The translations under genes were made by a program, and so were the position numbers. 64,000 nucleotides of DNA from an uncultured Clostridia bacterium (GTDB lineage: Bacteria; Bacillota; Clostridia; Christensenellales; Borkfalkiaceae), in NCBI GenBank assembly GCA_947175325.1, contig CAMWME010000003.1, positions 1-64,000 of the forward strand, in the 5' to 3' direction. The notes below the pieces were generated by a model. It searched no databases, was not told the DNA's origin, and was given only the letters and a program-made list of their open reading frames with translations. Shown here in pieces: positions 7,981 to 53,172 of the stretch (position 1 is its first letter; the number at the start of each line of letters is the position of its first letter).

Positions 7981-7990
7981 AAGTTCTCCC

Positions 7991-8178
7991 TCACAAAAAT
8001 CTCGGCTATTCTGCGCCTTGCGATTTTTCGTGATTTTAGGGCTTCTCGCCCTCTTTGCACAATCTTTAAGCGCACACCAATATATAATTGTGCAAATTCA
8101 CCTCGGTAAGCTCGCTTCGCGACAAATTGGGTGCGCTACACAAAAAGCGTGGTTTTTGCTTGCGCCGTTTATTATTTT
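7991..8178 (-). promoter_or_regulatory. Structured leader element, copy A (pyrG 5' region)
   Basis: About 188 nt of intergenic DNA closely resembling 42681-42872 upstream of lon, in the same orientation and at the same distance from the ribosome binding site. Stems, in plus-strand terms: TCACAAAAATC with GATTTTTCGTGA (one bulged C); GGGC/GCCC around TTCTC; TTTGCACAAT (8054-8063) with ATTGTGCAAA (8087-8096); TCGC/GCGA; and CAAAAA/TTTTTG around GCGTGG, on a GCGC/GCGC base. The stem nearest pyrG runs straight into the Shine-Dalgarno. I do not recognise a known riboswitch or leader family. Confidence 0.7.
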
Positions 8179-8222
8179 TGTAATTCGTAAAAATATTTAT
8201 ATTTTTATAATATTCTTAATTG

Positions 8223-8262
8223 TACCATACCCCCGCGCCAAAAAGCAAGACTTGGGGGATAA
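8223..8262 (-). terminator. Weak hairpin after dapF, possibly a terminator
   Basis: On the minus strand CCCCC and GGGGG flank a 19-nt loop, just after the dapF stop, without a clean T-tract. The following TACAAT, preceded by TTGCTT at 18 nt, could be a pyrG promoter. Both readings are tentative. Confidence 0.3.
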
Positions 8263-31828: not shown

Positions 31829-31859
31829 CGTCATTGCGAGGCTTGCCGAAGCAATCCAG
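31829..31859 (-). repeat. Dispersed palindromic repeat, left flank of the GIY-YIG gene
   Basis: On the minus strand, CTGGATTGCTTCG, then GCAAGCCT, then CGCAATGACG (31 nt). Identical to 49185-49215 in all 31 positions. ATTGC/GCAAT arms can pair. Confidence 0.85.
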
Positions 31860-32177: not shown

Positions 32178-32207
32178 CTGGATTGCTTCGCTCCGCTCGC
32201 AATGACG
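32178..32207 (+). repeat. Dispersed palindromic repeat, right flank of the GIY-YIG gene
   Basis: CTGGATTGCTTCG, then CTCCGCT, then CGCAATGACG (30 nt), in inverted orientation to 31829-31859. A partial copy (GCGCAATGACGG) follows near 32238-32249. Confidence 0.85.
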
Positions 32208-32263
32208 AGGCGGGCGTTTTACTTTATCACTTTGTCCCGCGCAATGACGGTGCGGCGTTTATC

Positions 32264-40359: not shown

Positions 40360-42669
40360 TTACAGTCCTATAATGGAGTTTTGGAATACCTCGCTTATAT
40401 CGGTAACCGGTATGAAGTTCAGCTTTTCACGGATATTTTCGGGGATTTCTTCCAAGTCCTTTTGGTTATCGGCGGGAATGATTATATCCTTTACGCCTAT
40501 GCGGTACGCCGCAAGCGCCTTTTCCTTTAAGCCGCCTATGGGCAATACCTTGCCGCGCAAGGTGATTTCACCCGTCATTGCAACCGACTTTTTAACGGGC
40601 TTTTTCGTGAACGCCGAAAGGATTGCCGTTGCCATTGTTATGCCCGCGCTGGGGCCGTCCTTGGGGGTTGCGCCCTCGGGTACGTGCACGTGAATATCGG
40701 TATTTTCGAAAACGGTATTTTCCAAGCCGTAGCTTGCGCTGTTGGAGCGGATATAGCTTATAGCCGCCCTTGCGCTCTCCTTCATTACGTCGCCCAGCTT
40801 GCCGGTAAGGAGAATATCGCCCTTGCCTTGCATAGCCGAAACTTCAATGGTGAGCGTGGTGCCGCCTACCGCAGTCCAAGCAAGCCCCGTAGCCGCACCT
40901 ACCTCGTCTTGTCCGAGGCTCTTGTCCTCTTCGTAGCGTCTTGCGCCGAGGAAGTCTTCTAAGTTTTCCTTAGTTACGGTAACCTTTTCTTCGTTGCCGT
41001 CAGCGTACCTTACGGCGGCTTTACGGCAAACTGCGTCTATCTTGCGCTCCAAATTTCGAACGCCCGCCTCCATGGTGTAGCCCGATATTATCGCGTTTAA
41101 CGCGCCGTCGTCAAAAGTAATCTGCCCCTCTTTGAGCCCGTTTGCCGCACTCTTTTTGGGGATTAGATACCTTTTTGCTATCTCGCATTTTTCCTCTTGA
41201 GTGTAGCCCGTAAGCTCGATGAGTTCCATTCTGTCCAAAAGCGGGCGGGGAATTCCGTCAAGCCCGTTTGCGGTGGTTATGAAAAGCACCTTGCTTAAAT
41301 CGTAGGGTACTTCGATATACCTATCGCGGAAGGTCGAGTTTTGCGCGGGGTCCAAAACCTCTAAAAGCGCGCTTGCGGGGTCGCCGCGCATATCCGAGGA
41401 TAGCTTGTCTATCTCGTCAAGAAGGAATACGGGGTTGGTTGATTCGGCTTGTTTTATGCCGTTGATTATTCTGCCGGGCATCGAGCCTATATAGGTCTTT
41501 CTGTGACCGCGAATTTCGGACTCGTCCTTGACGCCGCCGAGGCTCATTCTTACGAACTTTCTGCCGAGGGCACGGGCGATTGAAGTTGCAATCGAGGTTT
41601 TGCCCACTCCCGGAGGGCCAACGAGGCACAGGATGGGTGCGTTGAGTCCGTCGGTTAATTTTAATACGGCAAGGTACTCGGTTATTCTTTCCTTGATTTT
41701 TTCAAGCCCGTAGTGGTCGTCGTTTAAAATTTTAACAGCGTCGGCTAAGCTTTCGGTGTCCGTCGTCTTTTCCTTCCAAGGCAAATCCAAAAGCCAGTCG
41801 ATATAGTTTCTTAATACGTTGTACTCGGGCGAGGAGGTCTGCATCTTGTCCATTCGGGAAAGCTCTTTTAAAGCCTTCTCCTCGACCTCTTGGGGCATGC
41901 CCTTTTCCTTTATGCGCTTTTCAAGCTCCTCTTTTTCCTCTTCGTCGTCGCCGAGCTCGGTGTGAATGGCTTTGAGCTGTTCGCGAAGGTAGTACTCCCT
42001 TTGGTTCTTTTCTATGTTCTGGCGAACCATAGAGTTTATCTTGCGCTCTAACTTGGAAATTTCAAGCTCCTCGTTGAGAATTTTATCAATGGTGCGGAGT
42101 CTGTCGATTACGCGCTCGCACTCCAAAATCTGCTGCTTTGTTTCAAGCTTGATATTGAGGCTATTCGCGGCGATATTGACGAACTCGTCGGGGTCGCCGC
42201 ATCTGTCGAGGGCGGAAATGGTGTCCTTGGGAATGCGGGAGTCTGCCATAGAAATATCGCGCATAACGTTTTTAGCCGTGCGGAAATAAGCCTCTTCCAA
42301 CGCTTCCTCGCCGTGAACGGGCTTTATCTCGTCCACCTCCGCAGTGAAGGCGCCGTCCTTTAAATCAATGACGCGCACCGCCGCGCGGTAAAGACCTTGC
42401 ACGGTTATTCTTATGGTGTTTGCGGGAAGGCGTGTTACTTGTTTAAGCTGAACGACCGTACCCACCGCGTACATATCATCGAAAGAAACTTCGGTGAGTT
42501 CGGGATTTTTCTGCGCGCAAAGAAAGAGGCGCGAATCGCCTTCCGTCGCCTTTTTTACCGCCGTGAGGGAAATTATTCTGCCCACGTCGAAGCTTATAGT
42601 CGTATCGGGGAAAATTACTCTGCCGCGTACGGGTACTACGGGCAGAATTTCGGTTTTACTTCTTGACAT
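40360..42669 (-). CDS. lon: Lon protease (LonA)
   Basis: ATP-dependent serine protease degrading misfolded and regulatory proteins. About 769 residues from the ATG at 42669. An in-frame GTG 15 nt earlier lies inside the ribosome binding site GAGGAGG and is rejected. Domains: N-terminal substrate-binding (1-200), coiled coil, AAA+ with LVGPPGVGKTSIA and LLDEIDKLS, and the protease domain with catalytic Ser in KDGPSAGITMATA and Lys in GLKEKALAAYR. The 5' region (42681-42872) is the structured leader shared with pyrG. Part of the tig-clpP-clpX-lon-engB neighbourhood. Confidence 0.97.
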   Translation of the reverse strand: MSRSKTEILPVVPVRGRVIFPDTTISFDVGRIISLTAVKKATEGDSRLFLCAQKNPELTEVSFDDMYAVGTVVQLKQVTRLPANTIRITVQGLYRAAVRVIDLKDGAFTAEVDEIKPVHGEEALEEAYFRTAKNVMRDISMADSRIPKDTISALDRCGDPDEFVNIAANSLNIKLETKQQILECERVIDRLRTIDKILNEELEISKLERKINSMVRQNIEKNQREYYLREQLKAIHTELGDDEEEKEELEKRIKEKGMPQEVEEKALKELSRMDKMQTSSPEYNVLRNYIDWLLDLPWKEKTTDTESLADAVKILNDDHYGLEKIKERITEYLAVLKLTDGLNAPILCLVGPPGVGKTSIATSIARALGRKFVRMSLGGVKDESEIRGHRKTYIGSMPGRIINGIKQAESTNPVFLLDEIDKLSSDMRGDPASALLEVLDPAQNSTFRDRYIEVPYDLSKVLFITTANGLDGIPRPLLDRMELIELTGYTQEEKCEIAKRYLIPKKSAANGLKEGQITFDDGALNAIISGYTMEAGVRNLERKIDAVCRKAAVRYADGNEEKVTVTKENLEDFLGARRYEEDKSLGQDEVGAATGLAWTAVGGTTLTIEVSAMQGKGDILLTGKLGDVMKESARAAISYIRSNSASYGLENTVFENTDIHVHVPEGATPKDGPSAGITMATAILSAFTKKPVKKSVAMTGEITLRGKVLPIGGLKEKALAAYRIGVKDIIIPADNQKDLEEIPENIREKLNFIPVTDISEVFQNSIIGL

Positions 42670-42680
42670 AAATAGCCTCC

Positions 42681-42872
42681 TCACAAAAACTTCATTCTAT
42701 TCTGCGAATAAAGTTTTTCGTGATTTTTAGGGGCTTCTCGCCCCTCGTGCCGCAATCTCTAAGGGCACACAAGTATATAATTGCGGCACTTCACCCGCGC
42801 TGAGGCGAAAGCGTTCGCAAATTGAGTGCGGCGGCAAAAAGCGTGGTTTTTGCCGCCGCCGTTTATTATTTT
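42681..42872 (-). promoter_or_regulatory. Structured leader element, copy B (lon 5' region)
   Basis: About 192 nt matching 7991-8178. Stems, in plus-strand terms: TCACAAAAACTT with AAGTTTTTCGTGA (one bulged C); GGGGC/GCCCC around TTCTC; GTGCCGCAAT (42747-42756) with ATTGCGGCAC (42780-42789); GCGAA/TTCGC; and a long GGCGGCAAAAA / TTTTTGCCGCC stem around GCGTGG. Loops are conserved with copy A while stem pairs change together. It ends at the lon Shine-Dalgarno. Confidence 0.7.
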
Positions 42873-42892: not shown

Positions 42893-42921
42893 GCGCGGGC
42901 AAAATTCAATTTTGCCCGCGC
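42893..42921. terminator. Long perfect hairpin between clpX and the lon leader
   Basis: GCGCGGGCAAAATT / AATTTTGCCCGCGC with a single central base, 30 nt after the clpX stop on the minus strand. There is no T-tract, so intrinsic termination is uncertain. It may instead be part of the lon regulatory region or protect the clpX mRNA 3' end. Confidence 0.5.
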
Positions 42922-49184: not shown

Positions 49185-49215
49185 CTGGATTGCTTCGGCA
49201 AGCCTCGCAATGACG
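49185..49215 (+). repeat. Dispersed palindromic repeat, solitary copy
   Basis: 31 nt identical to the left flank of the GIY-YIG gene (31829-31859 on the opposite strand). It begins at the first base after the stop codon of the preceding gene. Confidence 0.85.
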
Positions 49216-53136: not shown

Positions 53137-53166
53137 CTGGATTGCTTCGCTTCGCTCGCAATGACG
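53137..53166 (+). repeat. Dispersed palindromic repeat, solitary copy
   Basis: CTGGATTGCTTCG, then CTTCGCT, then CGCAATGACG (30 nt). It differs from the right flank of the GIY-YIG gene (32178-32207) at one position and lies between a terminator and the M18 stop codon. Confidence 0.85.
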
Positions 53167-53172
53167 AGTGGC

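Follow-up and report, generated by a model that had tools for sequence, protein, structure and literature searches.

The BOX elements of Streptococcus pneumoniae are modular repeats that carry terminal inverted repeats and target-site duplications; they are structured if transcribed, are thought to be non-autonomous mobile elements, are restricted to a lineage and sometimes lie in 5' untranslated regions (PMC3049150). The bcr1 and other repeats of Bacillus cereus are lineage-specific, 100-400 bp long and variable in copy number, with mobile features, and bcr mobility is tied to a TTTAT motif (PMC6542083). ERIC and IRU are small repeats (127 bp for ERIC) which are co-transcribed with genes and affect mRNA stability (PMC2229807). 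Terminal inverted repeats are given as a criterion for MITEs in two papers (PMC3049150, PMC10969869).

Here we describe an element that occurs twice in the window, the whole analysed stretch of 64,000 nucleotides from an uncultured Clostridia bacterium, once before pyrG and once before lon. Because it sits at unrelated loci, varies in copy number, is missing from orthologous sites and forms tandem arrays, it is probably a non-autonomous, dispersed, mobile structured repeat that is confined, except for rare outliers, to a single family of uncultured Clostridia. By analogy with the published descriptions, it resembles the BOX, bcr1 and ERIC repeats in kind. Like BOX, it is interspersed, of similar size, structured, apparently non-autonomous, lineage-restricted and at times 5' untranslated; unlike the modular BOX, it has a fixed hairpin order, slight end complementarity and no established target-site duplication. 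It shares lineage specificity, variable copy number and mobile features with the bcr repeats, whereas its flanks are T-rich without a fixed motif of the TTTAT kind and its hosts belong to another group. Like ERIC and IRU it is a small repeat, of different host and length, and it is known from DNA.

HEARO RNAs prefer ATGA or GTGA at their boundary. The element is like HEARO and the IscB-TnpB RNAs in that a structured RNA would travel with a mobile element, and in having GTGA at one boundary. In contrast to HEARO, it has no Rfam match, a TnpB zinc ribbon is absent from 18 of 20 genomes, copy-rich ones included, and its GTGA belongs to the last stem and does not appear at the junctions of the empty sites of pyrG and lon. 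The element was not found in searches of open papers. It represents a large structured-repeat family with strong covariation that is absent from Rfam 15, and its hosts in named records are metagenome bins.

Two copies in the window

The first-pass annotation of the window had reported that two stretches of ~190 nt upstream of pyrG and lon align end to end. Both are indeed present, on the minus strand, with a row of hairpins common to both; in the RNA sense they run from 8177 to 7990 (pyrG) and from 42871 to 42680 (lon), over 188-192 nt. The downstream genes are pyrG and lon by NCBIfam match. The features are as follows.

7990..8177, minus strand: full-length copy in the pyrG leader (covariance model 177 bits, E 3.7e-57; model positions 1-188)
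8054..8096, minus strand: P3 of the pyrG copy, the covarying stem of the first-pass annotation, verified (sequence)
7991..8033, minus strand: P5 of the pyrG copy (sequence and fold)
7986..7990, minus strand: pyrG Shine-Dalgarno sequence GGGAG, abutting P5 (sequence)
7980-7978, minus strand: pyrG start codon ATG (the PyrG model match begins at residue 1)
8219..8248, minus strand: putative pyrG promoter, TTGCTT-18 nt-TACAAT with TGG before TACAAT, upstream of the insertion
42680..42871, minus strand: full-length copy in the lon leader (covariance model 195.4 bits)
42828..42859, minus strand: P1 of the lon copy, a GC stem and an A-run/T-run apical stem with the loop CCACGC (fold; helices 1 and 2)
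42747..42789, minus strand: P3 of the lon copy, an 11-pair stem around ATATA...GTGTGC (fold; helix 5)
42729..42745, minus strand: P4 of the lon copy, a short GC hairpin (fold; helix 6)
42681..42723, minus strand: P5 of the lon copy, a 17-pair terminal hairpin with GTGA at its end (fold; helix 7)
42676..42682, minus strand: lon Shine-Dalgarno sequence GAGGAGG, after P5 (sequence)
42669-42667, minus strand: lon start codon ATG (sequence)

Two stems were rechecked letter by letter, and the compensatory changes were as claimed. One is the pyrG stem 8054-8063/8087-8096, which reads TTTGCACAAT/ATTGTGCAAA, whereas its counterpart in the lon copy reads GTGCCGCAAT/ATTGCGGCAC: four positions differ, and the partner is changed at all four. 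This P3 stem follows from the comparison of copies and not from the fold of a single sequence, as the minimum-energy fold of the pyrG copy alone favours a different pairing at P3 and the middle part. Compared with dinucleotide shuffles, the fold gave z values of -3.22 for the pyrG copy and -6.56 for the lon copy; the plus strand of the pyrG copy showed a weaker excess (z -1.55).

The last pyrG stem (7991-8001 with 8022-8033) ends just 5' of GGGAG and ATG, in agreement with the earlier remark that the last stem adjoins the ribosome binding site. The accompanying statement that the aligned stretches stop at the Shine-Dalgarno sequence is true of both window copies but does not extend to the family, in which A follows GTGA in 76 of 108 copies. 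In the lon leader (window 42684-42667), the terminal GTG of the element shares the lon reading frame, and the ORF list accordingly begins Lon inside the element; the true lon start is likely the ATG at 42669. At the position of the putative pyrG promoter, TGG- or TGT-TACAAT is kept in five other genomes (G060, G029, G057, G008 and G054). A promoter consensus scan made no call there and gave no promoter-like match at either window copy.

Covariation and the selected strand

The covariance model gave 117 matches at E <=0.001, in 96 loci of 30 genomes. For the context, flank and per-copy counts the nine lowest matches (95.2 bits or less) were dropped, leaving 108 copies, which are the top of the match list. 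Compensatory change was seen in 24 of the 53 predicted pairs among the seven home-genome copies and in 47 of 53 across the 117 copies. In the 117-copy alignment, 95.4% of cells are paired, as against 74.6% in shuffles and 37-54% when the partners are slid out of register, and the observed value of any of five measures was reached by 0 of 500 shuffles; because this alignment was fitted to the covariance model, these figures favour the model. Helices 1 and 2 (P1) are paired in 99% of cells. Compensatory change affects 11 of 11 pairs in helix 5 (P3), 5 of 6 in helix 6 (P4) and 14 of 17 in helix 7 (P5). The weak helix is CACCC/GGGTG, with 76.5% paired.

With the CACCC/GGGTG helix left out, G-U occupies 99 and A-C 23 of 5271 cells in the 108 copies. 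This means that selection acts on the strand that forms the leader RNA. Among copies at different loci, the 12 closest pairs differ at 20 of 1168 stem positions, compared with 94 of 1064 loop positions (p 5e-15); in other words, stems are ~5 times less changed than loops. Of the changed base pairs in these 12 comparisons, 10 were kept and 9 broken, which indicates that recent changes do not all preserve pairing.

Broken pairs amount to 3.1% in leader copies and 2.7% in other copies (p 0.49), where the leader set of 37 holds the 36 leaders defined below and one wrong member, and where a structure-based search, which finds intact copies first, biases comparisons of intactness. Since a position at a start codon does not go with better-kept structure, the structural constraint seems to belong to the element rather than to the leader position.

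A pseudoknot between the P1 loop CCACGC and the P3 segment GTGTGTGC was considered; the pairing was found by eye in some copies only and is not claimed. The P3 segment varies (GTTTGC, GTGCGC) while the P1 loop stays CCACGC in many copies. None of 4227 Rfam families scored above its gathering cut-off on the element in the window, the seven home loci or 18 other loci, and permissive matches at the pyrG copy had E values of 1.1 to 8.7 only.

Copies in the home genome and in other genomes

Seven full copies and one short fragment were found in the home genome, and BLASTN and the covariance model, which was built from these seven copies, agree on this. Five of the seven are leaders, of lon, yicC, a cobW-like GTPase (named by eye, with no NCBIfam match at the cut-off used), secY and pyrG. 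The secY copy sits between rplO and secY. Another lies between metY and metA, antisense to both genes; the names metY, metA and rplO were read from translations. The remaining copy is located between a promoter, TTGCAT-N17-TATAAT, and the 6S RNA gene. As a side observation, the 6S RNA at this locus (L004:1466-1885, home contig C22) would gain a ~200 nt 5' extension unless processed.

In the genus, 80 of 93 genomes contain the element (match at E 0.01), with 0 to at least 28 copies per genome; copy numbers in the genus, family and order surveys are lower bounds, because no more than 28 candidates per genome were scored in the genus and 6 in the family and order. Family-wide, 201 of 398 genomes contain it, in 5 of 18 genera, and an even draw of the order gave 23 positive genomes of 396, in 5 of 142 genera. 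Only two genomes of the order draw that contain it (G402 and G477) lie outside the family; such outliers are rare and belong to two other families of the order. The length is ~188 nt, and ~225 nt in one other genus. The distant G477 copies keep the P1 hairpin, AAAACC(A/G)CGCTTTT, and most of them keep a CACC...GGGTGAA core, while most remaining letters differ. An exact-pattern search of named genomes gave 84 matching stretches, and among the matches listed (80 of 84) all titles are uncultured Clostridiales, Clostridia or Christensenella MAGs. The same pattern had no match in viral contigs.

Head-to-tail tandem arrays are also present, with four copies in L064 (the first degenerate), three each in L175 and L365, and two each in L366 and L353.

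One might suppose that each copy is an independent small-RNA gene and that the leaders are cases of read-through. The selection of one strand, the constraint on structure in leader and other copies alike, and the 6S copy, which directly follows a promoter, are in line with this idea. However, the 20 nt before the element hold no conserved promoter-like sequence in the 108 copies, the two window copies gave no promoter-like match, and copy number ranges from 0 to many among congeners. This explanation is considered highly improbable.

Empty and filled orthologous sites

Among the loci of the best 30 of 83 genomes with a match, the element lies directly upstream of pyrG in one, that of the home genome. 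For lon it is again found in one of 30 loci, the home genome (best 30 of 91 genomes with a match), and in addition in L039 (G029). Conservation with the orthologous gene, as expected of a riboswitch, was therefore not found at either gene. A 14.9-bit match before pyrG in L093 proved to be another repeat and a promoter region, not the element.

The pyrG site is empty in G060, G029, G057, G008 and G054, and the lon site is empty in G060, G054, G008 and G057 and filled in G029. The PyrG and Lon proteins of G060 are 96% and 95% identical to those of the home genome, and no trace of the element is left at either site, which read TTTTTACGAGATTATATGAC (pyrG) and ATATGAGGATTTAACGATGG (lon). The other home sites show a similar patchwork. 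The metY|metA site is empty in G060, G029, G054 and G057, and the cobW-like site in G060, G054 and G057; the 6S site is without the element in G054 and G008. The yicC site is filled in G060 and G008 and empty in G029, G054 and G057. The secY site has no element in G060, G029 and G054, a full copy in G028, and element-like 3' ends in G008 and G057. In G060 and G025 the element is present before clpX and absent before lon.

Eleven pairs of copies, picked by eye from a list of flank comparisons, share a site between two species, 10 by both flanks and one by the right flank only. The number expected by chance is 2-5, an estimate from our own arithmetic (5546 cross-genome pairs of copies, with 1200 sites assumed) and not the result of a tool. 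Some sites may have been kept for function. The copies of one pair, L049 and L051 (97% identical), are mutually closest among foreign copies; in the other 10 pairs, when the 101-107 foreign copies are ordered by closeness, the partner comes 19th to 95th. Identities of 92-96% across species can also occur between copies at different sites, as with L003 and L130. Independent repeated insertion is favoured over vertical inheritance for the same-site copies, although near-saturated divergence would mimic the low rank of the partner.

Gene context

Of the 108 copies, 62 have a downstream gene on the same strand and 44 one on the opposite strand; for two the strand is undetermined. No copy was scored as lying within an ORF, by a simple rule under which overlapping ORFs of less than 250 aa were disregarded. 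An ORF of 100 aa or more begins with an ATG no further than 30 nt from the 3' end in 35 copies; at the 5' end, on the other strand, this is so in 8 (p 4e-5). When alternative start codons are allowed and a Shine-Dalgarno-like word is required (start within 30 nt, ORF of at least 100 aa), 36 of the 108 copies are leaders. These make up 16 of 26 copies in the home clade (G000, the home genome, with G060, G029 and G054) and 20 of 82 elsewhere (p 0.0008).

Thirty of the 36 leader genes were scanned against NCBIfam; 8 of these were without a match at the cut-offs used. The genes are mixed: YicC, SecY, ClpX, Ffh, HslV, PheS, PrfB and RpsG, furthermore PurD, ThrC, NrdG, glucuronate isomerase and V-ATPase D; IleS, truncated by the locus end, and RimP scored below the curated cut-off. 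Genes that recur across species are yicC, secY, lon and clpX.

A second ORF-adjacent class was defined by a start within 18 nt and an ORF of 70 aa or more (43 copies). All 108 copies end with GTGA, while some distant copies end otherwise. The next base is G in 32 (mostly GGAG) and A in 76 (mostly AC, then T-rich), and 27 of the 32 G-continuing copies are ORF-adjacent, compared with 16 of the 76 A-continuing ones. The left flank holds a Shine-Dalgarno-like word in 11 of the 43 ORF-adjacent copies and in 2 of the 65 others. At lon, the insert is preceded by the old GAGG and followed by a new GAGGAGG. Our interpretation is that the element inserts at translation starts and that the copies which keep a ribosome site survive. 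Masking of the Shine-Dalgarno sequence by the element was considered and showed no consistent effect (n=36; mean accessibility 0.45, as compared with 0.38 when the upstream sequence is shuffled).

The first-pass annotation had proposed, on one side, a cis-acting leader that responds to a general growth or nucleotide signal and, on the other, a mobile structured repeat. Had the element been a genuine cis-acting leader, riboswitch-like or protein-bound, of a housekeeping regulon that was spread or co-opted, start codons and Shine-Dalgarno-like words next to a third of the copies (36), the asymmetry of ATG codons, the recurrence of the four genes named above and the high leader fraction of the home clade would all be natural. 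A riboswitch, on the other hand, is expected as the sense 5' leader of functionally linked genes, and most sampled copies are not leaders, 44 face a downstream gene on the opposite strand, and the leader genes are diverse, from secY, ffh and hslV through pheS, ileS, prfB and rpsG to purD, thrC and glucuronate isomerase. Furthermore, structure is no better kept in leader copies, the Shine-Dalgarno sequence is not consistently masked, and orthologous leaders of close relatives are without the element. A cis-acting leader is thus very unlikely. The annotation had itself named further copies lying mostly outside 5' leaders as evidence against its leader proposal; this is the situation overall, and the home clade, with leaders in the majority, departs from it. 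The covariance-model search of the genome and its relatives that it suggested is the source of the seven full home copies and of the 80 positive congeners. With the home copies at unrelated loci, the empty sites and the tandem arrays, the proposal of a mobile structured repeat is borne out. It should be mentioned that covariation between two leaders of a genome does not by itself imply a riboswitch, as copies of a mobile structured repeat look alike.

Tests for signatures of insertion and search for a mobilising enzyme

The element is short (~188 nt), non-coding and stably folded and lies in AT-rich intergenic sequence, as MITEs do: the 30-nt flanks have 34% GC, compared with 47% in the element, and are T-rich, with no fixed motif standing out. 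Terminal inverted repeats of the MITE kind were not found in the 108 copies. The first 25 nt, compared with the reverse complement of the last 25 nt, gave a mean local score of 5.5, where shuffled ends gave 4.7 (standard deviation of single scores 1.1); this excess is beyond chance over 108 copies, yet corresponds to less than one matched base. The consensus ends, AAATAATTAACGG and TTTTTGTGA, do not match. Terminal inverted repeats are vestigial at most.

Target-site duplication at a fixed offset gave a best identity of 0.36 against 0.32 (z 3.9, the best of many). By alignment, p was 0.26 for all 108 copies and 0.02 for the 43 ORF-adjacent ones, whereas a far-window control reached p 0.002. 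A general target-site duplication was not established on the 108 copies, and the control window outscored the best class. By appearance, the Shine-Dalgarno sequence is repeated on both sides at lon in G000 and G029 and at secY in G000. The closest sampled relatives are too divergent for the exact insertion junction to be defined.

Enzymes linked to hairpins or RNA were searched for in 20 genomes. Y1 transposase (PF01797) was found in two, G066 (1 copy of the element) and the copy-rich G070 (21 copies scored), where the match contains an internal stop; it was absent from G000, G019, G020, G025, G035, G047, G068 and G080. Reverse transcriptase occurs in six, namely the home genome, the copy-rich G025 and G080 and the copy-free G010, G015 and G085, and is absent from the copy-rich G019, G020, G035, G047, G068 and G070. 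The home genome holds one reverse transcriptase gene, at G000:C4:137264-137923. The TnpB zinc ribbon was found in two genomes, both copy-free (G014 and G015), and IS110 in none of the 20. The copy-rich G019, G020, G035, G047 and G068 have none of the four; as these are drafts of 93-97% completeness, single absences are soft, and the five together weigh more. With separate profiles for the 5' and 3' halves, no autonomous, gene-bearing version was found in 800 kb of the high-copy G019. The unpaired halves there were four weak 5' matches (E 0.29-0.98) and six 3' matches, three of which lie directly upstream of a full copy.

A variant of the mobile repeat is an element that acts as a DNA-level hairpin: the single-stranded DNA would fold and be used by a recombinase or a rolling-circle/HUH transposase during replication, the RNA having no role. 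This is possible, if somewhat less than likely. The AT-rich flanks, the lack of an established target-site duplication, the head-to-tail arrays and the low use of G-U cells are consistent with it. The distribution of Y1 argues against it, as the sole copy-rich genome with Y1 carries the internal stop, in a test that covered Y1 among the candidate enzymes. The bias of G-U over A-C fits RNA and one-strand DNA equally well.

A proposed model for propagation

Many intergenic copies in both orientations, presence and absence between close relatives, and compensatory evolution in leaders and non-leaders were all observed. For the mobile structured repeat favoured here, these suggest that the structure would be kept for the element's own propagation, not for neighbouring genes, and that the propagating form might be a folded RNA or a folded single-stranded DNA. 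Sense insertions just before start codons are enriched among surviving copies; with a Shine-Dalgarno sequence at the end of the new leader, next to the last hairpin, the gene can still be translated. The leaders of pyrG and lon seem to be two cases of such insertion, and an effect on their expression, if any, might be a by-product or a local co-option. The leader-rich home clade counts against a purely selfish element, which does not predict it. Other points against the mobile repeat are the 11 shared sites, which exceed the chance estimate, the nine broken pairs among the closest copies, the failure to establish a target-site duplication and the lack of an autonomous partner in 800 kb of G019.

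A bolder proposal, which we regard as rather doubtful, is that the element represents a new class of short mobile element whose unit of propagation is a folded RNA or one folded DNA strand. Its machinery would be other than Y1, reverse transcriptase, TnpB and IS110, and its insertions would be targeted to, or selected in, the space that separates the Shine-Dalgarno sequence from the start codon, rebuilding the ribosome-binding site. If true, bacteria would have a short interspersed element that supplies genes with new 5' leaders. The questions posed are what mobilises a short structured element without the usual RNA- or hairpin-linked enzymes, and how genes are translated after insertion.

Neighbouring repeats and hairpins

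The copies of ~250 nt (four in G019, and those in L142 and L177) owe their extra length to a nested second repeat. This second repeat, ~60 nt with TTTGCAC...GTGCAAA ends, is nested at varied places in L142, L177, L311, L313, L318 and L326. Another dispersed repeat, CGTCATTGCGAGG...CAATCCAG, is present in both orientations in the window, at 31829-31859, 32178-32209, 49185-49215 and 53137-53168, and L093 has a related repeat ahead of pyrG (1250-1395). Stand-alone P1-like hairpins, AACGGCGC-nnn-CAAAA...TTTTG-nnn-GCGC, were seen at 42893-42921 in the window, at L040:2731-2775 and at G000:C2:10317-10370. The one between clpX and lon is present also in G060, G054 and G029.
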